From positions 1 through 42,608 of IMG/VR virus record IMGVR_UViG_3300050821_001772: 42,608 nt of DNA. One strand, written 5' to 3'. The position numbers were made by a program, and so were the translations under genes. This DNA is from a virus. Each line of letters begins with the position of its first letter. Position 1 is the first letter of the stretch. Of the stretch, positions 8,419-36,338 are shown in pieces. A model generated the notes under the pieces. It had not been told where the DNA came from, did not search any database, and saw only the letters and a list, made by a program, of their open reading frames with translations.

Positions 8419-8424
8419 ATTATA
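8419..8424 (-). promoter_or_regulatory. TATAAT box 9 nt upstream of ATG
   Basis: Minus strand: TATAAT, AAAATCAAC, then ATG at 8409. The box contains the TAA stop of the repeat-protein gene. Confidence 0.4.
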
Positions 8425-11400
8425 GCACCGTTCGCTCCGCGTCTCGCGTGTCAAGGGTGGATGTCGGCTTGGTCGTCAGCGGCAGGTCGACGCGCTCCGT
8501 CGTGGTGAGGGAGCGCCCGATCTCCGGCCGAGGCGTGTCGAGTCCGGTGCGGTTCGGCGTGTTGGTAAGGACGTAGTGCTCGCCGCCTTGCGGGACTGGT
8601 GCCCCGATACAGGCGTTGCCGACAATCGCCTGCTGCGTCGTCACTTGGATGCGAGCCGTCGCCGTCTGCGTGCGGGTCGTCACGACAATGAGCTCAGCCG
8701 TGCCGGTCTCGGTTTTGAGGGTCGTCGCGCTCACTCGAGCCGTGCCGGTCTCGGTCTTAGTCCTCGTCTGCTGGATCCGCGACTCGCCCGATTCAGTGCG
8801 GGTCGTCGTGACGCCGATTCTTGCCGTGCCGCTCTCCGTCCGGTCCACGGTGACCGTCAGTCGGGCAGTTCCTGCCTCGGTTTTGGTCGTTTTTGCGGTT
8901 ATACGCGCCGTGGCGCTCTCTGTGTGCGTTGAGGTGGTCGTGACCCTCGAGACGCCTGTTTCGGTGCGTGTGGTCGTGATTTGGATGCGGGAGACGCCTG
9001 TTTCGGTTCGATCCTCGGTCACCTGCACACGCGCAGTGCCGGTTTCCGTCCGATCTGCCGTCACAGTCACACGTGAAACGCCCGACTCGGTCTGCAGTGT
9101 GGTCACCTGCACCCGTGCCGTCCCCGACTCTGTTTTGAGGGTTGTAGCCGTGATTCGGGCGGTTGCGGACTCGGTGCGCGTCGTGGTGGCTGTTACACGG
9201 GAAACACCGCTCTGCGTGCGGGTGGTCGTCGCTGTGATCCGCGCGGTGCCTGCCTCGATCTGCGGAGTCGTCGCGGTGAGGCGTGCCACGCCGGACTCGG
9301 TTTTGGTAGACGTCACCGTCACCCGCGCCACGCCACTCTCAGTGCGAGTGCTCGTTATCAAAATGCGGGCAGTCGCGGACTCCGTCTGTATTGATGTCTT
9401 TTGGATGCGCGCGGTCGCGCTCTCCGTCCGAGTGCTTGTGCCGGCAAGGTTCGCCACTCCGCTTTCGGTCTGGGACGTCGTCACCGTGATTCGTGCGGTT
9501 CCGCTTTCCGTCCGCAGCGTGCCGATCGCAAGCCGCGCAATACCGCTTTCGGTTTTGGTCGAGGTGATCTGGATGCGTGCCACGCCGGACTCCGTCTGCA
9601 CGGTGGTGTTCAGCACGCTCGCGGTTCCGCTCTCCGTCTGAGTGGTGGTAGCCGTAATGCGCGCAGTGCCGCTCTCCGTTTTATCGGTCGTCGCGGTGAT
9701 CCTCGAGACACCAGACTCCGTCTTTGTGTCGGTGATCTGGATGCGCGCGGTGCCTGTCTCGGTGCGCAGCGTGTTCTCGTCGATCGCCGCGCTGCCGCTC
9801 ATCGTCTGCGTCGTGGTCGCTGTTATTCTCGCGGTGGCGCTCTCGGTCTTAGGAGTGGTGACGCTGATTCGGGATACTGCGCTCTCTGTTTTGGTGGTCA
9901 CGATCGAAACCCGAGCAACGCCGGTTTCGGTCTTTGTTGTCGTCACTTGGATGCGGGCAGTGCCCGACTCGGTCTGCGTGGTCGTGCCTTTGATGTCGGC
10001 GGTGCCCGATTCCGTCTGGAGCGTCGTTGCCGTCACGCGTGCCGTGGCGCTCTCCGTCTTTGTCGTCGTCGCAGTAATGCGGCTCACGCCGCTCATCGTC
10101 CGCAGAGTGTTCTCGCCAATGCGTGCTACCCCGCTTTCGGTCTGCAGCGTAGTGCCGAGGATGTCGGCGGTTCCGGTCTCTGTCTTTGTCGTGGTGGCGG
10201 TGATCCGCGCGGTCGCGCTCTCGGTTTTCAGCGTCGTTGCAGTCACCCGTGCGACTCCGGATTCCGTCTTGGTGGTCGTGACCGTTATGCGAGCAGTGCC
10301 GCTCTCGGTCTGGTCGGTCGTGTTTTTGATGTTCGCAACGCCCGACTCCGTCTTGGTGGTGGTCGCGGTCACTCTCGAGACGCCGCTTTCGGTTTGAGTG
10401 GTGGTGGCCGTGATCCTCGCTACTCCGGACTCGGTCTTTGTCGTCTGCGTGCTGCCGCTTGCAATGTTGGCGACGCCGCTTTCGGTCTTTACGGTCGTTG
10501 CGGTTATTCTCGTCACCGCGCTCATCGTCTGGCTGGTTACGTGCGTGATCCTCGCGGTGCCGGTGAAGCTCGGAGTGGTGTAGTACACCGTCACCTTGAT
10601 ATAAAAGACGTTCGCTAGAGCGAAGAAGTCGACCTCGGCGGCGAGGTTCGCGGAATATGCCACGCCGAAGTTGCCGGCGTTGATGTCGCTCGGTCCCCAT
10701 GTTTGGCCCCAGAGGTCGGAGGAGCTGCCGAATGTTGCGACGGTCGGGGAGCTCGGGTACGCAGCGCCAGCCGACTTGTCGGTGCCGCCGACGACTCCGG
10801 CTTTCATCAGTTTTACGGAGTTGTCGGTCGCCGATCCTGAGACGCCGTTCGGGTCTTGCTGCTTTATAGATACGACGATGCCGTTGATGGTCGCGTTGCT
10901 CGGGATGGCGAATCCATACCCCCAGCCTTCGAGATATTCCGACGTTTGATTGGTGGAGTGTGAGTTCGATGAGGCCTGCGCGAAGTTGGTGTTGTCGCTC
11001 TCGATGTCCGTCGGGTTCGACCACGTTCGAGTGCCGATCGATGAGTCGTTGGTCGCGGAGGTGGGGAGTACCGGCCCGACCGAGGTGGTGACACCGTCGG
11101 TGTTGTCAGTCCTTTGGATGCGTGCCACGCCGCTCTCGGTTTGCGTCGTGGTCGTCACCGCAATGTGCGCGACGCCGGTCATCGTCTTGATCGTCTGCGT
11201 GTCGAAGGTGAGCGCCTGCGGGACGCTTATGTAGGACGCTGCGCTCGACGCTGCGGATCCGTTGGTCGGGTCGGTCGTGCCGTTCCAGTAAAAGTCGACG
11301 GTGCGAGTCGTGGTGCCAGTCTGCGTGCCTCTGCCCCACACTTCGACGACGAGCTGGTCTCCCTCGACAGAGGTAACGCTTGATCCCGAAACCGTCACGA

Positions 11401-11824
11401 CGATGCCTGTTTCTGCGGTTCCGAATGCGGTCCCGAGCGCGGTCGTCGCGTCGTATATATATCCGCGCACGGTGCCGTTGGGCTTGACGACGTAAATGGA
11501 GCAGCCGAGGGAGTAGTTTGCCGCCGTGTTGTTTTCGTTTGCGGCAAAGGCGAGCGTCCACGTCTGCGCGGTGATCGTCTGTGCTTTCAGCGGCTCGCTC
11601 ACCCACGTGTTCGAGCGCATCGACGTCAGCGTCGCTACGGTTCCGGTTTTGCCGTTGTTGGTCTTTTGCGTCGAGCTTGCCGACGATCCCATGTCGAGCA
11701 CGCCCGGGGGCACCGAGCTGCTCTTGTCGCTTCCGGCCGGCCATGCAGCAGAAAGACTCCCTGCCGCCAATGCCGACGGGGAGGTTATGTTCGTCGTGTT
11801 GAGAAGGTAAAGTTTTGTTGCCAT
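8420..11824 (-). CDS. Giant repeat protein: N-terminal virion domains plus ~46 tandem 14-residue repeats
   Basis: This 1134-residue protein has four parts. Residues 1-~210 form a beta domain starting MATKLYLLNTTNITSPSAL. One or two isolated repeats follow. Residues ~245-405 form a beta-sandwich/lectin-like module (EGWGYGFAIPSNATINGIVV, then SDLWGQTWGPSDINAGNFGV) common in phage structural proteins. Next come about 46 repeats of consensus TARITATTTKTESG, only one of them irregular (17 residues). A 65-residue tail ends TLDTRDAERTVL. Alternating Thr/Val/Ile in each repeat suggests stacked short beta strands, i.e. a long fibrous stalk. It has no cysteine-rich or catalytic motif. It sits among head decoration and connector genes rather than with the tail, so a head or neck fibre is plausible. 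The function is unknown. Confidence 0.85.
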   Translation of the reverse strand: MATKLYLLNTTNITSPSALAAGSLSAAWPAGSDKSSSVPPGVLDMGSSASSTQKTNNGKTGTVATLTSMRSNTWVSEPLKAQTITAQTWTLAFAANENNTAANYSLGCSIYVVKPNGTVRGYIYDATTALGTAFGTAETGIVVTVSGSSVTSVEGDQLVVEVWGRGTQTGTTTRTVDFYWNGTTDPTNGSAASSAASYISVPQALTFDTQTIKTMTGVAHIAVTTTTQTESGVARIQRTDNTDGVTTSVGPVLPTSATNDSSIGTRTWSNPTDIESDNTNFAQASSNSHSTNQTSEYLEGWGYGFAIPSNATINGIVVSIKQQDPNGVSGSATDNSVKLMKAGVVGGTDKSAGAAYPSSPTVATFGSSSDLWGQTWGPSDINAGNFGVAYSANLAAEVDFFALANVFYIKVTVYYTTPSFTGTARITHVTSQTMSAVTRITATTVKTESGVANIASGSTQTTKTESGVARITATTTQTESGVSRVTATTTKTESGVANIKNTTDQTESGTARITVTTTKTESGVARVTATTLKTESATARITATTTKTETGTADILGTTLQTESGVARIGENTLRTMSGVSRITATTTKTESATARVTATTLQTESGTADIKGTTTQTESGTARIQVTTTKTETGVARVSIVTTKTESAVSRISVTTPKTESATARITATTTQTMSGSAAIDENTLRTETGTARIQITDTKTESGVSRITATTDKTESGTARITATTTQTESGTASVLNTTVQTESGVARIQITSTKTESGIARLAIGTLRTESGTARITVTTSQTESGVANLAGTSTRTESATARIQKTSIQTESATARILITSTRTESGVARVTVTSTKTESGVARLTATTPQIEAGTARITATTTRTQSGVSRVTATTTRTESATARITATTLKTESGTARVQVTTLQTESGVSRVTVTADRTETGTARVQVTEDRTETGVSRIQITTTRTETGVSRVTTTSTHTESATARITAKTTKTEAGTARLTVTVDRTESGTARIGVTTTRTESGESRIQQTRTKTETGTARVSATTLKTETGTAELIVVTTRTQTATARIQVTTQQAIVGNACIGAPVPQGGEHYVLTNTPNRTGLDTPRPEIGRSLTTTERVDLPLTTKPTSTLDTRDAERTVL
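8618..10558 (-). repeat. Tandem 42-bp coding repeats (14 residues each, ~46 units)
   Basis: The region encodes about 46 consecutive units of the pattern [TV]-[AS]-R-[IV]-x-[AV]-T-T-x-[KQR]-T-E-[ST]-[GA]. The first unit reads TARITHVTSQTMSA and the last full one TARIQVTTQQAIVG. Units are diverged at the DNA level but strongly conserved at R, I/V, T-E-S and G, which points to protein-level selection. Unit 3 carries three extra residues. Boundaries were counted by eye and are good to within a unit. Confidence 0.9.
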
Positions 11825-14721: not shown

Positions 14722-15648
14722 TTAGGCTACTGCCGCTGCAATGAGGTAGCCCGCAGCTGCCGCAATGAGGAGCTGCACGTAGTTGTCGTTGCCGACGCGG
14801 ACGTACGTTCCTTCGCGGTCCTCCTCTCTCCAGCGCTTCGCTTGGCGGAGGCTGTAGGTGAAGGTGAGGCCGAGGGTGACCATGCGGAGGCGAATCTGCG
14901 GCGCGATGTACGCGACGAGCGCGTACTTGCCCCAGATGTAGCCGAGCGAGGTCGTCTGACCCTCTTTGGCGGTGTTGCTGCCGGCGTATCCGACGATCAC
15001 CTTGTCGACTTGGAAGATGCGCGCCAAGAGCTCAGGAGTGGCGATGCCGAGCTCCGAGTACTTGATGCGCTCAATGATCGCAGGGTGGTCGATGAGGACG
15101 TCGTACACCTGCTTGCCGAGCACGAGGGTGTTCGGGAGCTTGAAGGTGTTCTGGTGCACGCTGATGCGAGCCGTGCGGACGTCGCCGATCGGATCCGAGT
15201 TGTCGTAGTCACTCCACTGGGAAGTGCCGGACAGCGTCGTGTTGTTGGTGATATTGCTCGTGTTGAAGAGCAAGGTCGCCGCGTTCTGCTCGCGGTCGAG
15301 GAGCATTTTCTCCGTGATCGTCTCGACTTCGTCAACGAGCGGATTCAATGCTGCGTCCGCCTGATCCTGCACTTCGTCCGACACGAAGCCTTTCAGCGCG
15401 TGGTCGGTCGTTGCAAAGACGCCGGTCGGAGCGACACCGAAGTCGATCTCGTTAGCGGGAGCGCCGGCAGCACGATCGGTGCTGTCGATGCGGAGGTTGC
15501 TCTGGTCGTACACGTAGTACTTGCCCGTCTGCTTTGCTACTTTGAGCATCGGCAGGAGGACGTCCGCGATGAAGGTGTCGTTCGTGTACTTGATCGACAC
15601 GTTCGAGAGCGCGGGGTCGACGACTACGTCTCTTTCAGTTAAGGCCAT
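14722..15648 (-). CDS. Major capsid protein
   Basis: This 308-residue protein is placed after the protease-scaffold and DUF2190 genes. The N-terminus (MALTERDVVVDPALSNVSIK ... FIADVLLPMLKVAKQTGKYYVY) is the classic start of a group of HK97-fold capsid proteins: 'dp.Ltn.s..Y.n..fia..l.P...v....g+yy.y'. DHALKGFVSDEVQDQADAAL and NPLVDEVETITEKMLLDREQ form the spine region. PNTLVLGKQVYDVLIDHPAI, SLGYIWGKYALVAYIAP and YVRVGNDNYVQLLI complete it. It forms the capsid shell. It probably needs no cleavage of a long N-arm, but the adjacent protease leaves this open. Confidence 0.92.
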   Translation of the reverse strand: MALTERDVVVDPALSNVSIKYTNDTFIADVLLPMLKVAKQTGKYYVYDQSNLRIDSTDRAAGAPANEIDFGVAPTGVFATTDHALKGFVSDEVQDQADAALNPLVDEVETITEKMLLDREQNAATLLFNTSNITNNTTLSGTSQWSDYDNSDPIGDVRTARISVHQNTFKLPNTLVLGKQVYDVLIDHPAIIERIKYSELGIATPELLARIFQVDKVIVGYAGSNTAKEGQTTSLGYIWGKYALVAYIAPQIRLRMVTLGLTFTYSLRQAKRWREEDREGTYVRVGNDNYVQLLIAAAAGYLIAAAVA

Positions 15649-16099: not shown

Positions 16100-16843
16100 T
16101 TACTTCTGCGAAGCCACCAGCTCGTCGCGGTAGCGCTTCTCGAGCCCGTCGTTCTCCGAGAACGCTCGCTTGAGCGCGTCCGAGTACTTGAGGGTCTTGT
16201 CGCTTGCCATGATCGCCGTGACTTTCATGTCGAGCTCCTTCTCGACGGTGCCTGCACCAGCGCCTGCGCCGGTGTCGCCCACCTCTTTGAAGACCTTCGC
16301 GTCCGGCAATTGGCCGATCAAGTCGGCGAACACCTTGCGCTGGTCGTCATTGAGTGTCTGCATGAAGGAACGGATCGTGTCCTCGCTTTTCGGCAAGAAC
16401 CGGCCCGCTTTGTTGCTCTCGCTCATCACGAGTGCGGTGACCGCAGTGTTGAGCTTCGCCTTTTCGAGCTCGGCGAATGCGGAAGCGCCCTTGTCCGCCT
16501 GCCCCTTGAGGGCTGCGTATTCGGCTGCGCTGATCTGCACGTTGCCCTTTTCGTCGGCTACGAGCTTTTTCGATCCGTCGCGGTTGAGACCCTTGGCCTC
16601 GTTCGCGTCGCCTTCGGCTTTCTCCGACGCAGCCTTTTTGGACGCACGCTTTGCAGCCTTGCGCTTTTTGGTGTCGTCGTCGTCGCCATCCTGATCCTCG
16701 TCCGATTCGTCGTCGTCGTTCGAGTCCTCAGCGTACTGAGTCTTTTGCGCCTCGGACATTTCGTCCTTGTGCTTTTTGAGGAAGTCTTTTTCCTCGGCGG
16801 TGCGCTCGCCCTTTTTCTTCTTGAGAATGTCTGCGATGTTCAT
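16100..16843 (-). CDS. Possible independently translated scaffold protein (internal start)
   Basis: Within the protease gene an in-frame ATG at 16843 (MNIADILKKKKGERTAEEKD) begins exactly where the protease domain ends and the charged scaffold begins. It is preceded by the AT-rich stretch AGCGATAAAAAT, which looks like the leaders of other genes here and stands out from the GC-rich surroundings. A nested scaffold start is established for lambda C/Nu3 and many gpI-type proteases. The product would have 247 residues. Confidence 0.4.
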   Translation of the reverse strand: MNIADILKKKKGERTAEEKDFLKKHKDEMSEAQKTQYAEDSNDDDESDEDQDGDDDDTKKRKAAKRASKKAASEKAEGDANEAKGLNRDGSKKLVADEKGNVQISAAEYAALKGQADKGASAFAELEKAKLNTAVTALVMSESNKAGRFLPKSEDTIRSFMQTLNDDQRKVFADLIGQLPDAKVFKEVGDTGAGAGAGTVEKELDMKVTAIMASDKTLKYSDALKRAFSENDGLEKRYRDELVASQK

Positions 16844-17623
16844 ATTTTTATCGCTAAATTTGTTGATTAAGTTTTTGTCCGAAAACACTACCGCTTCGAG
16901 CTCCTTGAAGTACGGGCTCTTAGTGAGCGCGCCTCCAGTGAGAACGTTTTGGTATACCTCGTGCGTTTCGGGATCGGCGTATTCGAGGTAAAACTCCGGC
17001 GAGAAAAACTTGTATTGCTTGTCGCTCAAAGTTTCTTTCCCGAGCTGCGTCCAGTCTACCATGCCCCAGAGACCAGTGTCGCGTGCTTGCACCTGAGTTA
17101 TCCACCCCTGCGCTGGGAGCTCGCTCATGTTCTCGTGGCCGGCAGTAATGAAAACGCCCTTGCGGAGGTTCGCGTTGAAGTTCTGCGCGAACTGCTGGAT
17201 GTCGCGCGGGCTTATCACGATCGGCCCGTAGGCGTCGTGATCCCACGCGCCGATCGGGATGAGGTGGATCCACTGAGGAATCTGTCCCGCTGCGGTGCTG
17301 TCGTCGAACTCGAACGGAAACACGCCGACGTACTTCGAGCTCGCGCGTGCCTTGTTGAGCGCGGCCTCGAGCTTGGTGCGGATCGCCGCCTTCTCGCCTT
17401 CGGGGATGCCTTCGGTTTGGTCCAAGCGGGCGAGTGCGTTGCGCGTGTGCGGCAGGTCTACCTTGCCGTCAGCGTCCTTGTACGGCAGGTGGCGCAGCGA
17501 TCGCGGCGTCGTTTTGCCGTCGCTGTCTTTGGTGCCGCCTTTTTCGATGTACGCGAACGAGGAGTCGGGAAGGTCGTTCTTTTCTTTTGTGCTCCACTCT
17601 GCGAACTGGACGTGCTTCGTCAT
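16100..17623 (-). CDS. Head maturation protease with C-terminal scaffold (Mu gpI-like)
   Basis: This is a 507-residue protein. Residues 1-~90 carry a small extra domain (FAYIEKGGTKDSDGKTTPRS, LRHLPYKDADGKVDLPHTRN) often seen in front of phage proteases. Residues ~95-260 match Mu gpI/protease-type sequences (IHLIPIGAWDHDAYGPIVIS, then LRKGVFITAGHENMSELPAQ and SDKQYKFFSPEFYLEYADPE): the H in GHE and the S of FFSPEF-like strands suit a serine protease. From residue ~260 comes a highly charged, helical scaffold region (ADILKKKKGERTAEEKDFLK; DDDESDEDQDGDDDD). Upstream are a TTGACT and a TATCAT, the latter 6 bases before the ATG. An internal ATG at 16843 may give free scaffold. Confidence 0.85.
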   Translation of the reverse strand: MTKHVQFAEWSTKEKNDLPDSSFAYIEKGGTKDSDGKTTPRSLRHLPYKDADGKVDLPHTRNALARLDQTEGIPEGEKAAIRTKLEAALNKARASSKYVGVFPFEFDDSTAAGQIPQWIHLIPIGAWDHDAYGPIVISPRDIQQFAQNFNANLRKGVFITAGHENMSELPAQGWITQVQARDTGLWGMVDWTQLGKETLSDKQYKFFSPEFYLEYADPETHEVYQNVLTGGALTKSPYFKELEAVVFSDKNLINKFSDKNMNIADILKKKKGERTAEEKDFLKKHKDEMSEAQKTQYAEDSNDDDESDEDQDGDDDDTKKRKAAKRASKKAASEKAEGDANEAKGLNRDGSKKLVADEKGNVQISAAEYAALKGQADKGASAFAELEKAKLNTAVTALVMSESNKAGRFLPKSEDTIRSFMQTLNDDQRKVFADLIGQLPDAKVFKEVGDTGAGAGAGTVEKELDMKVTAIMASDKTLKYSDALKRAFSENDGLEKRYRDELVASQK

Positions 17624-17674: not shown

Positions 17675-17977
17675 TCAGTCGAGTTCCGGCAGGTCGACGG
17701 TCTGGTTTGCGAGTGCGTGCGTGCAGTCGCTGAGGAATTGTATCCGGCCGTCGGTAACGAACGAGTGGCAGCGTCGTGCTTTTCTCCACTCCTCGAACCC
17801 TTCAATCGCGTCGGGGTTCGCTTCCCACATCACGAGTATCGACGGCGTGAATGTCGGTCGATCGAGCGACTCGTTCCACGTCCAGCGCGGCGTTTGTATC
17901 TGGTGCAGTGTGTTGCAGCCCGGGCACTTGAAGGCCACGTAGGTGATTCCGCCCGCGGTCATCGGCTCTACCTTCAT
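17675..17977 (-). CDS. DUF6527-type zinc-binding phage protein
   Basis: This 100-residue protein matches the DUF6527 pattern: CPGCNTLHQIQTPRWTWN (C-x2-C plus H), then DRPTFTPSILVMWE and, near the end, CHSFVTDGRIQFLSDCTHAL followed by ANQTVDLPEL. The two C-x2-C/H clusters suggest a bound zinc ion. The family is common near structural genes of tailed phages, but its function is unknown. The start overlaps the stop of the 17974-18159 gene as ATGA, so translation is probably coupled. Confidence 0.85.
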   Translation of the reverse strand: MKVEPMTAGGITYVAFKCPGCNTLHQIQTPRWTWNESLDRPTFTPSILVMWEANPDAIEGFEEWRKARRCHSFVTDGRIQFLSDCTHALANQTVDLPELD

Positions 17978-18159
17978 GCGCGCTTCGGTACGAGCTTCAC
18001 CTCGAGGTACCCACCGAATAGTCGTCGGAAGGTATCACACGAAACTCTGCGTCTTATGTTGTACATTTCTTCCATCGAAATAGTGTTGATGTGGAGTGTG
18101 CCGCCGATGACCTCATGTCGCACGGCAGCCAATTGCAAATACTTTTGTTTTCGCTTCAT
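17974..18159 (-). CDS. Small protein starting at the 3' end of the tmRNA
   Basis: This 61-residue protein starts MKRKQKYLQLAAVRHEVIGG and is basic and mixed alpha/beta, with no known family. Its ATG begins with the A of the tmRNA's encoded CCA end (18159). The stop overlaps the next start (ATGA), which supports real coding. Because tmRNA 3' processing would cut exactly at its start codon, the two products would compete for one transcript unless a shorter internal start (MEEMYNIRRR) is used. Confidence 0.55.
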   Translation of the reverse strand: MKRKQKYLQLAAVRHEVIGGTLHINTISMEEMYNIRRRVSCDTFRRLFGGYLEVKLVPKRA

Positions 18160-18579
18160 GGTGGAGCTGGCGGGAATCGAACCCGCGTGTCGCTTGTTCT
18201 CGTTCACAACGTCTACGATGCGTATCCGGCTGCGCGCCGGCGCGTTGTCGGTGAGGCTTTTCAGACCTCGCTCCGATCGGTTGGCCGGAAGACCGGCAGG
18301 CGTATGAATAGCCCTTAACTACGGTGCTGCGTTTTGTTTGACGGACGCCTCGAGCAGCTCGGTCGTCCAACGGCTCGTGATCACGCCGCCACCGATACCA
18401 GCCGTATCTGTCGGTGGAGACGCAGCTCTACGCGAACGCTGGCGTCCGTAAGGACGCGACGGTCGGGAAGAACTGGGAGACAGTTGCTTTCGCATTTGTC
18501 GTGTGCCCGCTTGTTGAGGTCGGGCGCTCATGCATCGCATTGTGAAAGAGCATCAAACGATCGAAGCCAAGTCAGCCCC
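18159..18579 (-). ncRNA. ssrA: Transfer-messenger RNA (tmRNA)
   Basis: The 421-nt RNA starts GGGGCTGACTTGGCTTCGA and ends with a T-arm (GGGTTCGATTCCC) and CAGCTCCACCA with encoded CCA; GGGGCTG pairs with CAGCTCC. A long P2 helix pairs the region after the 5' end (TCGTTTG, CTCTTTCACAA) with TTGTGAACGAG and CAAGCGA before the T-arm. Pseudoknot 1 is visible as GAG-GCCCG-CTC-CGGGC. Eleven nt after it, as in E. coli, a GCG resume codon opens a 21-codon tag beginning AKATVSQFFP and ending LRTPAFA at TAG in the loop of a CAGC/GCTG stem. tmRNA rescues stalled ribosomes and tags the peptide for proteolysis. It lies inside the head gene cassette. Confidence 0.96.
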
Positions 18580-18726: not shown

Positions 18727-18754
18727 ATTGTATCAAAAAGGCACCCCGCAGCAA
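18727..18754 (-). promoter_or_regulatory. Weak candidate promoter for the tmRNA
   Basis: TTGCTG (18754-18749), 16 bases, TACAAT (18732-18727). The -35 lies in the terminator hairpin. Transcription would start near 18720 and give a leader of about 140 bases. Confidence 0.35.
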
Positions 18755-18764
18755 CGGCGGGGTG
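18735..18764 (-). terminator. Rho-independent terminator after the small zinc protein gene
   Basis: On the minus strand CACCCCGC and GCGGGGTG form a perfect 8-bp stem around a 7-base loop, followed by CCTTTTTG. It separates the portal-zinc protein transcript from the tmRNA unit. Confidence 0.85.
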
Positions 18765-19048: not shown

Positions 19049-21526
19049 CTATTCCTTTGCGAGTGCCTGTCGCTTGACGTACTGCTCTGCGAGCGACCCG
19101 GGCTTCGTGATCGGCGCTTTCGGCTGCACGAGCTCGTTGGTCTGGCCGCCGTAGTAGGCACCGACGTTGTCCGGCACGCCGTCCACTGGCGGGGGATTCA
19201 CTTCGTCCTTGAGGATCGCGACCCAGATGCCGCGGCAGTTGCTGTGGAAGATGTCGGTGCTGCCCCACTCGTCGTCGGCGTCGACTACCCTTCCGTCCAT
19301 GCTGATGCAGAAGTTGCACGTTTTGTCGTCGAGTATTTCCGATCGCTGCAGGCCGTGAATGTCGTCCTTGTTGCGGTCAAAGACGGCGTTGCGTCCGTTG
19401 TTGATGCCTTGGCCCACGAGGATGTTCGCAGTGTCGGTTATGTTCTGGTCGATCGCGTCGTCGAGGTCTTTGTCGATCTGGCCGGCTGCCTGCAGTGCGG
19501 GCTTGCCGCTCTTGACGGCGTTTGCGATCGCGATCTTTGCGGTCGCGTTCAAGTCCGCTGCGGTCTTGCTGGCGATGGCGTCAGCGAGCATGTCGATCGT
19601 CGCGAGGTCTGATTGCGAAGCGCCCGGGCGCGCGCCGTATCCGAGCTCCTGCGTCGCCGTGCTGCGTCCGTAGGCGTGTGCCTGCGTCATCGCGGTGGTC
19701 AGGATGTCCTTGTACTTTTTCTCGAAGGTGATCGTGAGGGCTGCGAGGCCGGCGATGTCCGCCGTCGTCAAGAGGTCGTGCACCTTGCTCATGTAGTCGG
19801 TCTTTGCTTTCGTGAGCGCGTCGTTCGCCGGTCCGGTGAAGTCGTCCTGCAGCTTGTCCATCATTTCCTGCATCTTGCCCCAGTCGACTTTCGTCTCGCT
19901 CGCGGTCAACGGCCGCCAGCTGGCGAAGCCCTCGGCGACGTTGAACGTCCGCTTGAGGCGCGTGCCGTGGTCGTGCGTGTGCGCATGCTGCTGCGGTTGC
20001 GGCTTGGGCGGTTTCTCGGGCGTGGACGGTTTGCCGTTCTTGCCCTTGCTCGGCTTCGGTTTCACCGCCGGCTTTTTTCCTTTGCCTTTGGTCGCAGCGT
20101 CCTCGTCGTCAGCATCGCCTGCAGCGTCCTCGACGTCGTCGTTGCCGCTATCCTCATCCGGTGCCGGATCGTCGAGGCTCTCCTCGTCCGGCTCATCCTC
20201 GGCTTGCTCGTCGATCTGTTCCTGCGTGAGCGGAGGAAGCCCGAGGAGCGTGCGCATGTATTGCTGGTCGTCGGTCGTTGGCGTGATCGCTCCGGCCGTA
20301 ACGAGCTGCGCGTATGCGGTGCCCACGGCGGTGATGTCGGCCTTGGCGATGCCGTTGTAGTCGAGCACGGGATACGCCTCGACGTTGTTGAAGTTGAGGT
20401 CGACGAGCTCGCGGATCACGTCGCGGTTTATCACCGTTATGATCGTGTTGGCGAGCGCTTCCATGCTCTTGAGGAAGAGGTCGCTGTGGTCCTGCGAGAG
20501 CGCGCGGCTGCCGCTGTTCGCCTTGCTCTGGCCCAGCTCGAGGAATTGGGCGAGGACGCTTTGCAGGATTTGTTTGTTGTGGTGTTCGATCGCCGTCGAC
20601 GGATCGCGCGTGCTGCGCGCGTTCATGTCGAGGAAGCCTACCTCCATCGTGTTCGGGAACACGAGGAACTGGCGCTGGTTGGCGCGCAGGTTGCTCAGCA
20701 CCTTTTCGGCGCGCTTCTCGTCGTTCTCGGTGTAGCCCTGCGGCATCTTGGCGAACGGGACGCCGAGCGCCTGTCGCTCGAAACCGAGCGCGTCGATCGC
20801 GTAGTACTTGCTCTTGCGGTACCAGTGCTGGTACGCCGATCGCAGCATGCTCGTGCCCCACCAGTTGTCGCCTTCCCTTTCGTTGACGAAGATGGCGAGC
20901 TTGCTGCCCGGTATCTGGGCTAGCACGCCGTCCTGCCTGATCTGCTGGATGCCGAAGGTGCGGTCGGCGAGCTCCCACATCAAAATGCTTTTAGGCAGGC
21001 GCGGTGCGAACTTCTGGAGCGTGACGTAGGTCTTGCCCTCGAACTTGTACGTGCCGTAGACCTTCTCGAAGAGCATCACGCCGAATGCGGTCATCAGGAG
21101 CGCTTGGCGGAGGATGTCGTCCCATGCCATGTCCTCGATCCAGTCGAAGAGCGCGTGGCGCACGAACTCCGCTTGCTCTTTTGCAGCAGGGGAGTCGCCG
21201 GCTTCTTTGATAAACCACTCGGCGCGGCGGATCGGCAGCGTGCATGCGAGCAGCGCGGCGCGCACGGTGCCGTCGCTCTTGCGCATCTTGTCGTAGATAG
21301 CGATGCCTTGGATGCCTTGGAGCTCGCCGAGGTACTCCTCGGTAATGATGCCGTGGAGTATCCGCGTGCCGGAGTCGCCGGCTTCTTGGCGCGGCTGGCT
21401 GCTCTCGAGCGAGTGCGAGGGCGCTGTCTTTTGCAGGTTCTTTTGGATGCTGATCGGCACGCCCGTTTCGCTCGGCTCGAGGAACCGGAGGCTGTCAGCG
21501 GTGAGTCCTGTGTTTTTTATTTCCAT
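19049..21526 (-). CDS. Portal protein fused to MuF-type head morphogenesis protein
   Basis: This is an 825-residue protein from ATG 21526. Residues ~1-430 match Mu gp29-type (DUF935) portals (ILHGIITEEYLGELQGIQGI, then MRKSDGTVRAALLACTLPIR, KEGD-like linker and WWGTSMLRSAYQHWYRKSKY). A disordered acidic stretch (EDEPDEESLDDPAPDEDSGN) and a lysine/proline linker (~440-520) follow. The last ~300 residues are a MuF domain ending SEILDDKTCNFCISMDGRVV and FHSNCRGIWVAIL, where C-x2-C and H-x2-C are typical. Portal and MuF are usually separate genes, so this is a natural fusion. The portal forms the DNA entry ring; MuF proteins help head assembly or are ejected. Confidence 0.9.
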   Translation of the reverse strand: MEIKNTGLTADSLRFLEPSETGVPISIQKNLQKTAPSHSLESSQPRQEAGDSGTRILHGIITEEYLGELQGIQGIAIYDKMRKSDGTVRAALLACTLPIRRAEWFIKEAGDSPAAKEQAEFVRHALFDWIEDMAWDDILRQALLMTAFGVMLFEKVYGTYKFEGKTYVTLQKFAPRLPKSILMWELADRTFGIQQIRQDGVLAQIPGSKLAIFVNEREGDNWWGTSMLRSAYQHWYRKSKYYAIDALGFERQALGVPFAKMPQGYTENDEKRAEKVLSNLRANQRQFLVFPNTMEVGFLDMNARSTRDPSTAIEHHNKQILQSVLAQFLELGQSKANSGSRALSQDHSDLFLKSMEALANTIITVINRDVIRELVDLNFNNVEAYPVLDYNGIAKADITAVGTAYAQLVTAGAITPTTDDQQYMRTLLGLPPLTQEQIDEQAEDEPDEESLDDPAPDEDSGNDDVEDAAGDADDEDAATKGKGKKPAVKPKPSKGKNGKPSTPEKPPKPQPQQHAHTHDHGTRLKRTFNVAEGFASWRPLTASETKVDWGKMQEMMDKLQDDFTGPANDALTKAKTDYMSKVHDLLTTADIAGLAALTITFEKKYKDILTTAMTQAHAYGRSTATQELGYGARPGASQSDLATIDMLADAIASKTAADLNATAKIAIANAVKSGKPALQAAGQIDKDLDDAIDQNITDTANILVGQGINNGRNAVFDRNKDDIHGLQRSEILDDKTCNFCISMDGRVVDADDEWGSTDIFHSNCRGIWVAILKDEVNPPPVDGVPDNVGAYYGGQTNELVQPKAPITKPGSLAEQYVKRQALAKE

Positions 21527-21531
21527 GGGTA

Positions 21532-23052
21532 TCAAAATTCCTTATCTAAATCGCCAGAGGTGATCGGCGTGTCGCCGCGCATCTCGAGCGCTGGAGAATA
21601 GTGCGCCGTGTTCTGCTGCTCAGCAGTTCGGGCCGGCGTTGCGATCTCGGTGAGCTCGCCCTGCACGTGGAGCACGCGCATCTTGACGGCGATGCTCCAA
21701 TGCTTGAGCGCGCACATGAGAGCGTCGGGAATGTGGTCGTCCTTTTTGACCGGCTTGTCCGTTCCCTCTTGGTATCGGTAATTCTTGAGCTGGTAGTAGG
21801 CATCGCGGAAGCGCTTGGGCATCTTGATGCGGCGCTGCTCGAAGTAAGCGCGAAGGTTGCCGAGCATGCCGACCGTGCCGATCTCGCCCGGGCCGCCCGG
21901 CTTACCGAACTTCTCCGTGCCGAAGTTGACGTCGATAACTTCGCACCCGATGTTTTTAGCAGCGAGCGCATTGCGCAGCTCTGGGTTTGCAAAATTGCCG
22001 CTGCCGATGTCTGCATAAATATATCGGATGCCGTGTGCCTCGACCTTCTTGACTATCTCCACAATGATGCTCGAGAGCTTTTCCTCGTGGTAGTTCTTGT
22101 TGTCGACTACCGCGACGATCCCGTCCGTCATCGCCATCACTTCAACGACGGCGGTCATTGTGGAGAAGCCCCAGTCGATGCCGAGCACCGCGGCTGCTCC
22201 TTGCGTAAAATTGTAGCACGTTTCTTTTGTGTCATCGTACACCGCACTGTCAACATCCTCGGGTTTGAGAATGAGCCCGCTCGCGCTCGGCTTGCTGCCG
22301 AGGTACTCGACCTCGAACCAGTCGGCGGTCGGTTTCTCGCGCCATGCCTGCACGATGTTCTCGATCGGTATCCAGCCTTCCGGATCGCCGGTGCGGTTGC
22401 CGGCAAAGGCGCGCAGCGTGTCGATGCCGGAGATATTGCGCACGTCCTCGCGCTGCCAGAACGAAAGCTCAAAGGGCAGGCACACGTCGAAGATGTCCCA
22501 CTGGATGCGATGGTATCCCTTTTCCACAGCGTCGTCCCACGTCTCGGCAAACCTGCCGAATATCTTGTGAAAAGTGCTCGCCATGATGACGAGCGGGAAG
22601 TTGCTGTCGTTGACCATCGGGAGCGCGGAGTCGATGAGCTCGTCGCTGGTCTCGCAGGTTTCGTCGCTGATCAAGACGTCGGGGTGTTTGCCGCGCACCT
22701 GCTTCGGGCTGGCGGTGACGCATGAAAAGTCGTTCTGATTCCAGCCGGTCGTTTTGCTCGCGGTGACGTTGCCCTCGATGCTCTCGTGCACGCTCGGGTC
22801 CATTTCGCAGTAGTCTTGAAAATATCCGTAGACGATCTCGGCCTGCACCTGCGAGCCGCCCATCGTCACCACCTTGCGTCCTTTCAAATACCAGAGGTCG
22901 AAGCCGACGGTGCCGAGCAGTTTGCTCTTACCACCACCGCGCGGTGCTTTGATGATGATACGTTGATGCCCTCCATTCCAGATCGCGGCGTAAGCACTGC
23001 GGATCGCCTTCGGCCACTTCATCGGCTGGCGCCCGGGATAGCTCCGGTGCAT
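21532..23052 (-). CDS. terL: Terminase large subunit
   Basis: This is a 506-residue protein from ATG 23052. The frame is open to 23169 and another ATG lies at 23022 (MKWPKAIRSAY), so the exact start is uncertain. The ATPase half has Walker A in APRGGGKSKLL, Walker B in DVLISDETC and a coupling segment in VIMASTFHKIFG. The nuclease half has the acidic triad in LGIDWGFSTMTAVV, YIYADIGSGN and DHIPDALMCALKHW. It packages DNA into the prohead and cuts it. It overlaps the small subunit gene by about 125 bases and stops 5 bases before the portal start. Confidence 0.93.
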   Translation of the reverse strand: MHRSYPGRQPMKWPKAIRSAYAAIWNGGHQRIIIKAPRGGGKSKLLGTVGFDLWYLKGRKVVTMGGSQVQAEIVYGYFQDYCEMDPSVHESIEGNVTASKTTGWNQNDFSCVTASPKQVRGKHPDVLISDETCETSDELIDSALPMVNDSNFPLVIMASTFHKIFGRFAETWDDAVEKGYHRIQWDIFDVCLPFELSFWQREDVRNISGIDTLRAFAGNRTGDPEGWIPIENIVQAWREKPTADWFEVEYLGSKPSASGLILKPEDVDSAVYDDTKETCYNFTQGAAAVLGIDWGFSTMTAVVEVMAMTDGIVAVVDNKNYHEEKLSSIIVEIVKKVEAHGIRYIYADIGSGNFANPELRNALAAKNIGCEVIDVNFGTEKFGKPGGPGEIGTVGMLGNLRAYFEQRRIKMPKRFRDAYYQLKNYRYQEGTDKPVKKDDHIPDALMCALKHWSIAVKMRVLHVQGELTEIATPARTAEQQNTAHYSPALEMRGDTPITSGDLDKEF

Positions 23053-28340: not shown

Positions 28341-28664
28341 TTATTTTTCTTTTGCTATCTCACCCATTACCTTGCGAGCCAGTGACGCATGCGCCTTTTT
28401 CTCGGCATCTACGTGTTGCTGCAACTCAAACTCTGCCCGGGTGATGGCGTATTCCATCGCTTTGAGGATATTGCGCCAGCCCGCCATGTATCCGAGGCTC
28501 CGGCCAGCAAAGACCCACTTCTTGGTCGCGTTGCGTTGCGGCTGGTCGAGCAGGCTGATGGTGCCTTTGTCGTAGTCGATCTCGACGAGCACGCGCACGC
28601 CGTGGAGCGTGTAGCCCACGATCTCGAAGTGCTTCTCGCGGGTATTGTCTTGTTTTTTACTCAT
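28341..28664 (-). CDS. Conserved-looking phage protein, unknown
   Basis: This 107-residue protein has a beta-rich first half (FEIVGYTLHGVRVLVEIDYD) and a long C-terminal helix (NILKAMEYAITRAEFELQQH). RNATKKWVFAGRSLGYM suggests a compact alpha+beta fold. The start overlaps the upstream ParB-MTase stop by ATGA. It may be a partner of the methylase, but only position suggests it. Confidence 0.6.
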   Translation of the reverse strand: MSKKQDNTREKHFEIVGYTLHGVRVLVEIDYDKGTISLLDQPQRNATKKWVFAGRSLGYMAGWRNILKAMEYAITRAEFELQQHVDAEKKAHASLARKVMGEIAKEK

Positions 28665-29917
28665 AACTTTTTCGCTTTTTGCTGGGTCAGCAACTCCCAG
28701 CGCTTAATAATGACGTCCACGTACTTCGGGTCGAGCTCCATGGTGAAGGCTCGCCGGTTGAGCTGCTCTGCGGCGACCAGCGTTGAGCCGGAGCCGCCGA
28801 AGAGGTCGAGGACGATGTCGTCGCGCTTGGAGCTGTTGCGGATCGCAATGCTCACCAGCTTGACGGGTTTCTGCGTCGGATGGTCGTACTTGCTCTCTCG
28901 ATGCAGGCGCCAGACGGTGCTCGCGCCTGCCTCGTCCTTGGTGACCTGTGCGCGGAGCGCCTTAAGGAGTTCCGCATCCGTCGGTTCCTCAGTCCACTCC
29001 GTGTATTGTTTCCGGTCGCCGTAGAAGTTGAGCTTGCTTCCGACTCTGTGGCAGTAGAGAATCGGCTCGTGTTTCCAGCGGTAGTCGCCCCAGCCCATGC
29101 TCGCGACCTTCTTGACCCAGATGATCTGCTGGCGTACCTCGAAGCCGGCGGCGTTGAGCGCGTCCTCGAATTCTCGGTGCGTGCGCGAGGCGTAGCAGAC
29201 GTACATGCCGCCGTCGCTTTTCAGCGAGGCGGCATAGTTCTTGAAGGCTCCGTTGAGCAGTGCTCGGAAGGCCTCCTCGGTCATGTTGTCGTTCTTGATG
29301 GTGGAGCTCGTATTCGCGCCCCTGCCGGAGTAGTTGACGTTGTAGGGCGGATCGGTGAAGACCATATCCACGAGCGCCCCCCCCCTCAGCGTTTCTACAT
29401 CCGCCAGCTTGGTGGCATCGCCGCACATGAGGCGGTGCCGACCCAGCTCGTAGACGTCGCCCTGTTTGGAGGTGGGCACAATCGCGGCGGCCTCCTTGTC
29501 CGCATCGAAGTCGTCGTCATCCCCGTCGCCGAATATCTTGTCGAGCTCCTTGCTGGAGAAGCCCACGCCGGCCAAGAGCGCCGGATCGAATTGCGCGAGG
29601 AGCGCGTCGTCGAACTCGCCTTGGTTTTTGTTGAGGCGCAGGTTGAGTGCCTTCTCCTTCTCGAGCGTGAGGTTCACCCACACCACCGGCAACGTCTTTA
29701 GCCCTTTCGTTTTTGCGATGGAGAGCTTGAAGTTGCCGCCGATGACGATGCCCATGCGCTCGGGGTTGCTGTTGGCGACTATCGGTTGCATGAAGCCGAA
29801 CTCGTCGAGGCTCGCCGTCAGCTGGGCGCGCGCGGCATCCGGCCAGTGGCGCGGATTGTAGTCCGCCGGCACCAGCCTTTCTATTGCGACCTGTTCTACT
29901 TTGAGTTCGGTTTTCAT
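28661..29917 (-). CDS. ParB-like nuclease/N-domain fused to DNA N6/N4 methyltransferase
   Basis: This is a 418-residue protein. Residues 1-~110 match the ParB N-terminal domain ('L.padyNPR......a...L..si.e.Gf.qPivvn......g.ivgG+.r..aak..gl..vPvv'). Residues ~150-418 form a beta-class DNA methyltransferase: VFTDPPYNVNYSG (motif IV, DPPY), KKVASMGWGDYRWKHEPILY and VLDLFGGSGSTLVAAEQ (motif I, FGGSG). ParB-methylase fusions are common in phages. They modify adenine or N4-cytosine in phage DNA, possibly to evade restriction. It is coupled to the downstream gene by ATGA overlap. Confidence 0.93.
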   Translation of the reverse strand: MKTELKVEQVAIERLVPADYNPRHWPDAARAQLTASLDEFGFMQPIVANSNPERMGIVIGGNFKLSIAKTKGLKTLPVVWVNLTLEKEKALNLRLNKNQGEFDDALLAQFDPALLAGVGFSSKELDKIFGDGDDDDFDADKEAAAIVPTSKQGDVYELGRHRLMCGDATKLADVETLRGGALVDMVFTDPPYNVNYSGRGANTSSTIKNDNMTEEAFRALLNGAFKNYAASLKSDGGMYVCYASRTHREFEDALNAAGFEVRQQIIWVKKVASMGWGDYRWKHEPILYCHRVGSKLNFYGDRKQYTEWTEEPTDAELLKALRAQVTKDEAGASTVWRLHRESKYDHPTQKPVKLVSIAIRNSSKRDDIVLDLFGGSGSTLVAAEQLNRRAFTMELDPKYVDVIIKRWELLTQQKAKKL

Positions 29918-34247: not shown

Positions 34248-36338
34248 CTAGTCGGCAATGAAGCCTTGTAAGCGGGTAATGCCGACCCCGGGGTGCATGA
34301 AGAGAAGGTCGCCTTTGCCGGTGAGCTTCTCTGCGCCCTCGACTCCGAGTATCACCTTGCTATCGGTGGCGGAGGCGGTCGTGAGCGCGATGCGGGTGGG
34401 GAAGTTGGCCTTGATCAAGCCGGTTATCACGTCCACGCTCGGGCGCTGCGTCGCAATGATCAAGTGGATGCCGACCGCGCGCGCCATCTGTGCGAGGCGG
34501 ACAATCATCTCCTCGACCGTTGCCATCTCGTCGTCGGGCTCGGGCGGCGTGTAGGCCATGCCCATCTTTGCGAACTGTTTCGCCATCTGCTCCACCTTGG
34601 CACGCGTGACGATCGTCTGCAGGCTCTCGCGCTTTTTCGCTCTGCGTGAGATAACCTTGCCCTGTAGTATCAGGTCGGCGAACTCGTCGACCACCGTCAC
34701 GATCCAAGGCAGCGAGTCGCCGTGCTTGGCGTTGTAGGAGGTGATGTCCTTGACCTTCGCCTTCTCGAGCAGCTTGTAGCGGCTCTCCATCTCGTCGGTG
34801 AGGCCTTTCAGTATCAGCAGCGCGTCTCCGTATTCGTAGGCGATCTTGCCGCCGTGGAGGTGCTTGTCGCCTTTCCACTCGGCGAGCTCCACCCGCTTCG
34901 GGTCGATGAGTATGAGGTGCATCCGGTCCGGCGTGTTCTGTTTGGTGAGTGCCTTTAGGAAGGTGCGGATCGTGACGCTCTTGCCGCTGCCGGTCGTGCC
35001 GGCTACCAAGAGGTGCGGCATGTCGTTGAGGAAGGCCATGTGCGGCGTACCTTGCACGTCCACCCCGATCGGCAGCGAGAGGCTGTCCTTGACGATCTCC
35101 GCCTTGGTGAGCTTCGCCACCGTGCGGCCTTCGGTCGGTACTTCGATCCCGACGAGGCTCGTCCCGGGGATCGGTGCGAGGATGCGTATCTCGCCCTTCG
35201 CTTCGATCGCGCGGGCGATGTCCGCCTTGTGCTTTCCGAAGCGGCTCATCGGGATGCCGGCGCTGACTTTGAAGCGGTACTGCACGACGCTCGTGCCGGT
35301 GATCGCCTCGGTCGGCTCGACGGGGATGCCGAACTCTGCGAGGCGCAGCTTGATTTTCTCCTCGGGCAGGAGGTGCCTGTTGACGTCGCTGTCGAGTCTC
35401 GAGCTCACGAACTTCTTGCTGGTGTAGGCGACGTCGCGCACCTTGTGCATCACCTCGACGTCGCTCATGTCGCCGGAGAGCAGACCTTGCGCGTAAAGCA
35501 GCCCAGCTTGCTCACCATCGAACGGATCGCTGAGGTTCGGGAGGAATATCGCCTCGGGGTTGCGGAGGAAGCGGATCACGTCGCCGTAGAGGTTGTAAAA
35601 AATGATCCGGTATTGCTCGTGGCTGAACGGTATCGCCCAGTCGCGCACCTGCGGTTTGCCGGCGTTCTCCTTGCTGTTCTCGGTGACCTTCACCTCGCGG
35701 AAGAGCATGCGGTCGGCGTTGATGCCTTTGGCCGCCTTGAGGAGGTGCCAGAGGAATTGGCTCTGTATAATTTTGATCCAGTCCTCCTCGTCGTATTCGG
35801 TGAAGGTCTTGACGAACTTCACGTCGACGATCTCGATGCCGCCGTCCTTGCGTTGGTGCACGATGTCGGGCACTCCAACGGCCGGCAGCGGCAGCTCTTG
35901 CCCGTCGATCGTGTGCAGCGTGGCCTCCATTTTCTCCTCGCAGAGCAGCACCTCGTTGTACTCGGGCTCCTCGGCAAAGTAAAAGCGCATCGCCTGCTGG
36001 TACGTCTTGAGCATTCCTTCGCGGCTTCCGGTCTTGCCGTATTCGATGTTGGCGTCCGGATAGTCGACGAGGTATTGCATGCCGAAGTCGATCGCGAGCT
36101 CGCGTGCCTCGTTGCGATCGGCCGGTGTTGCGATGTCCTTGTTGCCGCCGTAGTAGACCTTCAGCGCCTCGTGGCCGGCCCGACCGACCATGCCGGAGAC
36201 TCCGGTGGGCCGATCGTACACGCCAAGGATGTACTTGAGTTTGTAAATGATCGGGTTTCGCAGCAGCTGCGTGAGCCCCGAGTAGCTCATTTTGTCGACC
36301 GGCATCTGCACGGTCTTTGTGTCCTGTTTTTGATCCAT
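34248..36338 (-). CDS. PD-(D/E)XK nuclease fused to FtsK/HerA-type DNA translocase
   Basis: This is a 696-residue protein. Residues ~15-260 form a RecB/Cas4-type nuclease: MVGRAGHEAL (His 56), AVGVPDIV (Asp 158), EIVDVKF (Asp 172, Lys 174) and IIQSQFLWHLL (the Q-x3-Y/W motif). Residues ~350-415 resemble the FtsK beta region (FKVSAGIPMSRFGKHKADIA ... IRILAPIPGTSLVGIEVP). The motor has Walker A VAGTTGSGKS (~445-454), LILIDPKRVELAEW, Walker B VTVVDEFADLIL (551-552) and IIATQRPSVDVITGLIKANF. It ends right after the motor (TRLQGFIAD) and lacks the DNA-reading gamma domain. Own promoter at 36366-36394. RecT lies two genes upstream. A role in DNA end resection or recombination is inferred. Confidence 0.92.
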   Translation of the reverse strand: MDQKQDTKTVQMPVDKMSYSGLTQLLRNPIIYKLKYILGVYDRPTGVSGMVGRAGHEALKVYYGGNKDIATPADRNEARELAIDFGMQYLVDYPDANIEYGKTGSREGMLKTYQQAMRFYFAEEPEYNEVLLCEEKMEATLHTIDGQELPLPAVGVPDIVHQRKDGGIEIVDVKFVKTFTEYDEEDWIKIIQSQFLWHLLKAAKGINADRMLFREVKVTENSKENAGKPQVRDWAIPFSHEQYRIIFYNLYGDVIRFLRNPEAIFLPNLSDPFDGEQAGLLYAQGLLSGDMSDVEVMHKVRDVAYTSKKFVSSRLDSDVNRHLLPEEKIKLRLAEFGIPVEPTEAITGTSVVQYRFKVSAGIPMSRFGKHKADIARAIEAKGEIRILAPIPGTSLVGIEVPTEGRTVAKLTKAEIVKDSLSLPIGVDVQGTPHMAFLNDMPHLLVAGTTGSGKSVTIRTFLKALTKQNTPDRMHLILIDPKRVELAEWKGDKHLHGGKIAYEYGDALLILKGLTDEMESRYKLLEKAKVKDITSYNAKHGDSLPWIVTVVDEFADLILQGKVISRRAKKRESLQTIVTRAKVEQMAKQFAKMGMAYTPPEPDDEMATVEEMIVRLAQMARAVGIHLIIATQRPSVDVITGLIKANFPTRIALTTASATDSKVILGVEGAEKLTGKGDLLFMHPGVGITRLQGFIAD

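Follow-up and report, generated by a model that had tools for sequence, protein, structure and literature searches.

The stretch of DNA analysed here (the window) is a 42,608-bp IMG/VR virus record, in which genes for a portal/MuF protein, terminase, head protease, major head protein, tape-measure protein, RecT, an FtsK-like protein, a DNA methyltransferase and an endolysin-like protein are recognised, all on the minus strand. The only RNA gene that ARAGORN reports in this DNA is a tmRNA, the RNA by which stalled bacterial ribosomes are rescued and the incomplete protein receives a tag. It spans 18159-18579, encodes the tag AKATVSQFFPTVASLRTPAFA and also lies on the minus strand, which the original prediction had left unstated. 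The tmRNA is flanked by the portal/MuF gene and the gene for the head maturation protease, with the major head protein gene further downstream, and its predicted location in the head cassette is borne out by the phrog annotation of these three genes. The features of the locus are as follows.

19049-21535, minus: portal protein fused to a head-morphogenesis (MuF-like) domain, the upstream flank of the insertion slot (phrog_113, 1.8e-74; phrog_241)
18742-18764, minus: terminator-like hairpin and T run that follow the portal gene and shortly precede the tmRNA unit (consensus match only)
18727-18740, minus: CTTTTTGATACAAT, a T run leading into an extended -10-like sequence, perhaps the promoter for the tmRNA unit (consensus; putative function)
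18159-18579, minus: tmRNA (ssrA) gene, complete, one-piece (ARAGORN; Rfam RF00023, 70.7 bits)
18573-18579, minus: acceptor stem, 5' strand GGGGCUG (full pairing with CAGCUCC)
18532-18560, minus: long P2 helix, 5' strand (RNA fold)
18505-18530, minus: pseudoknot 1, stem GCCCG/CGGGC, loop CUCA pairing with upstream UGAG (same architecture in three other phage tmRNAs, L003, L023 and L057)
18428-18493, minus: tag reading frame from resume codon GCG to TAG, encoding AKATVSQFFPTVASLRTPAFA (ARAGORN, gene nt 87-152; aligned L003 frame)
18442-18457, minus: hairpin GCGUCC-UUAC-GGACGC within the tag frame, at the position of Rfam helix 5 (RNA fold)
18191-18221, minus: long P2 helix, 3' strand (RNA fold)
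18170-18186, minus: T-arm GCGGG-UUCGAUU-CCCGC (Rfam alignment)
18159-18169, minus: acceptor stem, 3' strand CAGCUCC, with discriminator A73 and encoded CCA (sequence)
17675-17977, minus: DUF6527 protein, in the insertion slot with the tmRNA (PF20137, 4.7e-13)
16100-17623, minus: head maturation protease, the downstream flank of the slot (phrog_328, 8.6e-20)
14722-15648, minus: major head protein, query for the relatives (phrog_1005, 3.4e-83)

Three other minus-strand genes of the window are noted in passing: a 1134-residue gene (8420-11824) in which imperfect copies recur many times every 42 bp (14-residue repeats) and which may encode a virion fibre or tail protein; a PD-(D/E)XK nuclease domain with an FtsK/SpoIIIE-type motor domain fused behind it (34248-36338); and an N6/N4 DNA methyltransferase fused to a ParB-like N-terminal domain (28661-29917).

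Anatomy of the tmRNA

The sequence at 18159-18579 is a complete one-piece tmRNA, which we call real because two independent programs, ARAGORN and Rfam, agree on it. Model RF00023 is matched over its full length (model positions 1-374) with 70.7 bits and an E value of 1.2e-25, above the gathering score of 47 bits, so that the complete tmRNA claimed in the original prediction stands and passes the covariance model as well. The acceptor stem has 7 bp, including a G3-U70 wobble, which is the mark of alanine acceptance, and it is followed by discriminator A73 and an encoded CCA. The resume codon GCG, at nt 87 of the gene and 11 nt past pseudoknot 1, opens a frame of 21 codons that ends at UAG. The acceptor stem, encoded CCA, T-arm, pseudoknot 1 and GCG codon that had been read from the letters are thus all present, and the long P2 helix claimed with them is seen in the minimum-energy fold (-171.8 kcal/mol, z -3.4, with 0 of 100 shuffles as stable).

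Upstream of the gene, the terminator-like hairpin and its T run have an equivalent upstream of the tmRNA in L003 and upstream of a tRNA-Met-tmRNA pair in L023. The extended -10-like pattern, for which the chance expectation in the window is 0.5, is also accompanied by similar sequence in L003 and L023. Because the terminator-like hairpin is followed by the T run and the extended -10-like sequence in the window, in L003 and, before the tRNA-Met, in L023, a separate transcription start for the tmRNA unit inside the late operon is suggested.

Relatives with and without the tmRNA

Relatives in other metagenomes were found by searches with the head protein and the portal, and full-record Rfam searches detect a tmRNA in 3 of the 15 close records; of the 50 wider records one is a clear case. 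L003, L022 and L023, all from other metagenomes, have the tmRNA in the same slot between portal and protease, with L003 and L022 being apparently one virus in two metagenomes; in these two the slot also holds a counterpart of the DUF6527 protein, 56% identical. In the more distant phage L057 the tmRNA lies just upstream of the terminase genes, with a tRNA close by. It is noted that ARAGORN misses the L003/L022 tmRNA (L003:1576-1936) and reads only the tail of that in L023 (13270-13649), while Rfam finds them; phage tmRNA counts from ARAGORN alone may thus be low.

In the carriers the gap between portal and protease is about 1.06-1.42 kb, whereas among the relatives without a tmRNA it is at most 54 nt in L024, L026 and L027, the two frames overlap in L025 and the two matches nearly touch in L040. 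Because portal and protease nearly adjoin where the tmRNA is lacking and are separated by a kb-sized gap where it is present, the tmRNA is an accessory element that occupies a definite slot and does not stem from misassembly. A contig chimeric with host DNA, one of the conditions under which the original prediction would have fallen, is ruled out by the tmRNAs in the same slot in independent metagenomes. The head-protein tree puts the slot carriers together with L040, which has no tmRNA, in a single five-member group of weak support. The tmRNA may have been gained once and later lost, or gained more than once. Note also that head proteins 74-75% identical go with tmRNAs that can hardly be aligned.

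With several close relatives lacking the gene, this patchy presence would be expected if the phage had picked up a host ssrA and kept it by chance, with no role in infection, and known phages have acquired ssrA fragments at integration sites (PMC3203893, PMC9004378). By contrast, the tmRNA here is full length, with its structure and tag tail kept through deep divergence, and it lies inside the structural operon, at no attachment site, with no integrase recognised among the genes scanned. We therefore regard a mere passenger as unlikely. On the same grounds of full length and no integrase recognised among those genes, an attB/attP remnant (a partial 3' end beside an integrase) is ruled out.

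Two sub-threshold matches in the searches are recorded separately. In L115 (record G059), where the head protein is remote, about 1480-1580 on the minus strand matches the permuted two-piece tmRNA model at 32.3 bits, below the cut-off of 47, and the order of its acceptor halves is that of the permuted form. In L114 (record G044), 129 nt at 1501-1629 score below the tmRNA threshold and have an acceptor stem, G3-U70 and a T-arm, with little room for a tag frame; it may be a form reduced to the tRNA-like domain, as in phage DS6A, or a chance match.

Probable selection on the RNA and on the tag

The tmRNAs of the window, L003, L023 and L057 align well with one another only at the 5' end, the 3' end and the tag region. 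In spite of this divergence all four have G3-U70, A73, a fully paired acceptor stem, pseudoknot 1 and a long tag, and the alanine-identity features G3-U70 and A73 are thus present, as sequence features, in every tRNA-like domain; the encoded CCA is found in the window only. Acceptor pairs 4-6 change together across the four. Pseudoknot 1, with both its stem and its pseudoknot pairing, stands at the same place in all of them with different base pairs, and the weight of this evidence is its recurrence at the same place, the per-sequence shuffle support being modest (1-77 of 300 as good).

With the frames of the three relatives corrected by alignment to the window, the tag reads AKSIASPYFSNAGSLRTPAFA in L003 (a gene missed by ARAGORN), ATKAVQSPYFASVKDVLAGRDLVLA in L023 (where ARAGORN gives the tail AGRDLVLA only) and AKTSIPSPYAAFLQEPQYA in L057. 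The last eight residues, SLRTPAFA, are identical in the window and L003 across nine nucleotide differences, all synonymous, while four residues are kept in the first thirteen codons. When nine changes are placed at random, this peptide survives in 0 of 400,000 trials, and when the changes are confined to the observed sites it survives in 1.3%. Because the tail is held at the protein level, the tag is probably translated and under selection. The in-frame hairpin of the window has equivalents of other sequence in L003 (AGUC-UUCG-GACU) and L057 (GUUCC-UACA-GGAAC), and since a hairpin of changing sequence overlaps tag codons in all three, RNA pairing would also constrain these codons. Selection on both RNA structure and encoded tag thus appears visible in four divergent tmRNAs on contigs of 41-43.5 kb.

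The tag tails differ in L023 (-DLVLA) and L057 (-EPQYA), and the pattern P-x-[FY]-A of the window tail occurs also in L057. Matches to the tag-tail pattern in L034 and L035 are taken as chance, with no tmRNA being present there. The motif GGTGGAGGTAACAYGAACCC (L023:13529-13547, L003:1787-1805) is common to two otherwise diverged phage tmRNAs and partly to L057, and it is absent from the sampled Patescibacteria tmRNAs.

The kept parts also bear on the idea that the RNA acts mainly as a decoy, titrating host SmpB and so blocking host trans-translation. When expressed in E. coli, the tRNA-like-domain-only form of mycobacteriophage DS6A inhibits the cell's own tmRNA (PMC4131195, PMC11915505). A decoy, however, has no need for a conserved tag, a resume codon or pseudoknot 1, all of which are kept here, and we consider this role very improbable.

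Style of the tag and the probable host

Tags in the tmRNA database are most often 10 aa long (PMC11915505), and the claim of a long tag with a non-LAA end is confirmed by the 21 codons ending in PAFA. Whether the tag is unusual, as it was also called, depends on the comparison: it is so against the usual 10 aa and against E. coli, but known phages have tags of 22-25 residues, and in Patescibacteria its length and ending are common. The median length of 57 Patescibacteria tags is 21 aa, and 33 of them have at least 16 aa with no AA end, proportions that are rough since the sample is uneven by score (the best 50 plus some weaker matches). By contrast, the tags of Acidobacteriota and Verrucomicrobiota (the best 30 each) have a median of 9 and all end in AA, with long non-AA tags in 0/30 and 0/30. 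Examples from Patescibacteria are AKSFVSKVKTAFAIPTFAPAFA, ANKLQPAFA and ANKVASVKSPYFGMNNFAFAFA. The phage tag has in common with the chromosomal tags of the phylum that long tags there start with AK or AN and end in -PAFA, -PALA, -VA or -YA, and the endings PAFA and PQYA and the stretch SPYF are found in both phage and Patescibacteria tags. At the Patescibacteria loci L160 and L171-L240 the tags are commonly of 15-32 residues and end in -PAFA, -PALA, -APAVA, -SPVAA or similar, not in -LAA. No description of this style was found in the literature searched, the coverage of which is incomplete.

Because the tag is in the style of that phylum's tags, the phage, or the source of its tmRNA gene, probably belongs with Patescibacteria as host or gene donor. 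Tag style is nevertheless no proof of host, since some mycobacteriophages have long tags, of 22-25 residues, that do not resemble the usual mycobacterial tag. The tags of phages of Streptomyces, Stenotrophomonas and Alcaligenes end in AA. A tag-composition score that separates Patescibacteria from the two other phyla was dropped as host proof, as mycobacteriophage tags also score positive.

At the nucleotide level, the window tmRNA has its best scores in Patescibacteria (the top three in a BLAST search of a mixed set), but no close nucleotide relative was found in the sampled members of the phylum, and a DNA search of one class matched the last 30 nt only. A DNA search of phages gave matches of the tRNA-like domain to mycobacteriophages only. 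No isolated phage has a match to the terminase or a head protein that reaches 60% identity; relatives of the head protein sit in MAGs of mixed phyla, and in 380 Patescibacteria genomes this protein has one match, which is remote. The internal motif GGTGGAGRTAACAYGAACC of L003/L023 gives 10 matches in the 380 genomes, about the same as the reversed-pattern control. These attempts by DNA, terminase, head protein and motif thus yielded no direct host link.

Proposed function

We propose that the gene is a functional phage-encoded tmRNA that would act in ordinary trans-translation during infection, with a Patescibacteria-style tag and with the phage or the gene source probably belonging to that phylum, a reading to which we give a probability of about 0.78. 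In this model, the alanyl-tRNA synthetase of the host would charge the phage tmRNA, and host SmpB would then deliver it to ribosomes that have halted on mRNA which is broken or lacks a stop codon. The SmpB would have to come from the host because none is encoded in the window contig or in the records of three carriers; phages with a tmRNA and no SmpB are consistent with supply by the host. The ribosome would resume at GCG, add AKATVSQFFPTVASLRTPAFA and terminate at UAG, and the tagged product would be degraded by host proteases. The gain to the phage would be that ribosomes are freed and truncated products removed while phage and host mRNAs break.

It might instead be argued that trans-translation works and that the tag carries a signal specific to the phage, one that is no degron or is recognised by another protease, so that the rescued peptides escape degradation or are routed elsewhere. 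The LAA ending that E. coli ClpX reads is missing from the tag, the last eight tag residues are conserved at the protein level between two phages, and some mycobacteriophage tags also lack an AA end. Yet -PAFA, -PALA and -APAVA are normal cellular tag ends in Patescibacteria and Mycoplasma tags end in AFA, so that a non-LAA end need not mean a non-degron, and the differing tails -DLVLA and -EPQYA are as expected for degrons of different hosts. We thus hold a phage-specific signal to be improbable. There is similarly only a small chance that the conserved tail SLRTPAFA is phage-chosen, being no copy of a host degron, and alters the fate of rescued proteins in an uncultured Patescibacteria host. 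An ordinary degron is favoured for the tag because a relative preserves its tail as an amino-acid sequence and because this tail resembles the cellular tag ends of one phylum; since the cellular tags of Patescibacteria share such endings, the non-degron idea is unnecessary. Of the three roles offered in the original prediction, supplementing ribosome rescue is therefore the one that the sequence comparisons best support, while redirection of peptides and protection by a non-degron tag find no support in this tail.

The long non-LAA tags of Patescibacteria may help to recognise phages that infect this almost uncultured phylum, and they raise the question of which protease reads them.

Comparison with known tmRNAs

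Phage tmRNAs are already known, from earlier cases (PMC4131195) and from 402 of 18,146 phage genomes (2.3%; PMC9004378), and the window tmRNA adds a well-preserved new case to them without representing a new type of system. With the bacterial one-piece tmRNAs of RF00023 it has in common the full-length match, the acceptor stem with G3-U70, the T-arm, P2, pseudoknot 1 and the tag frame, whereas its score is low (70.7 bits against 160-213 for the best Acidobacteriota and Verrucomicrobiota tmRNAs) and its tag is longer, with a non-LAA end.

The mycobacteriophage tmRNAs of clusters C1, M and V (Nappy, GenevaB15 and EniyanLRS) are also phage-borne and complete, with a 3' end alignable with that of the window and, in two of the three, a tag of 22-25 residues that is long like the window's. 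They differ in genome size (78-157 kb), in having tRNA genes that flank the tmRNA, and in their tags (ATDTDATVTDAEIEAFFNEEAAALV, AVDTDVDFAMWEAELASDLVAA and AADVAADYAAVGA), which are unrelated in sequence to the window tag. The methylophage Melnitz likewise has a complete phage-borne ssrA with host factors presumed, but its tmRNA is two-piece and permuted, with a glutamine riboswitch, in a 141-kb myovirus (PMC9004378).

Apart from unannotated fragments, the comparison phage tmRNAs come from larger phages, of 62-168 kb. The four related contigs of 41-43.5 kb with divergent tmRNAs make a compact set for asking how a tmRNA would benefit a phage. The window tmRNA is set apart from the known cases by the small size of its genome, its place in the structural operon and its Patescibacteria-like tag.
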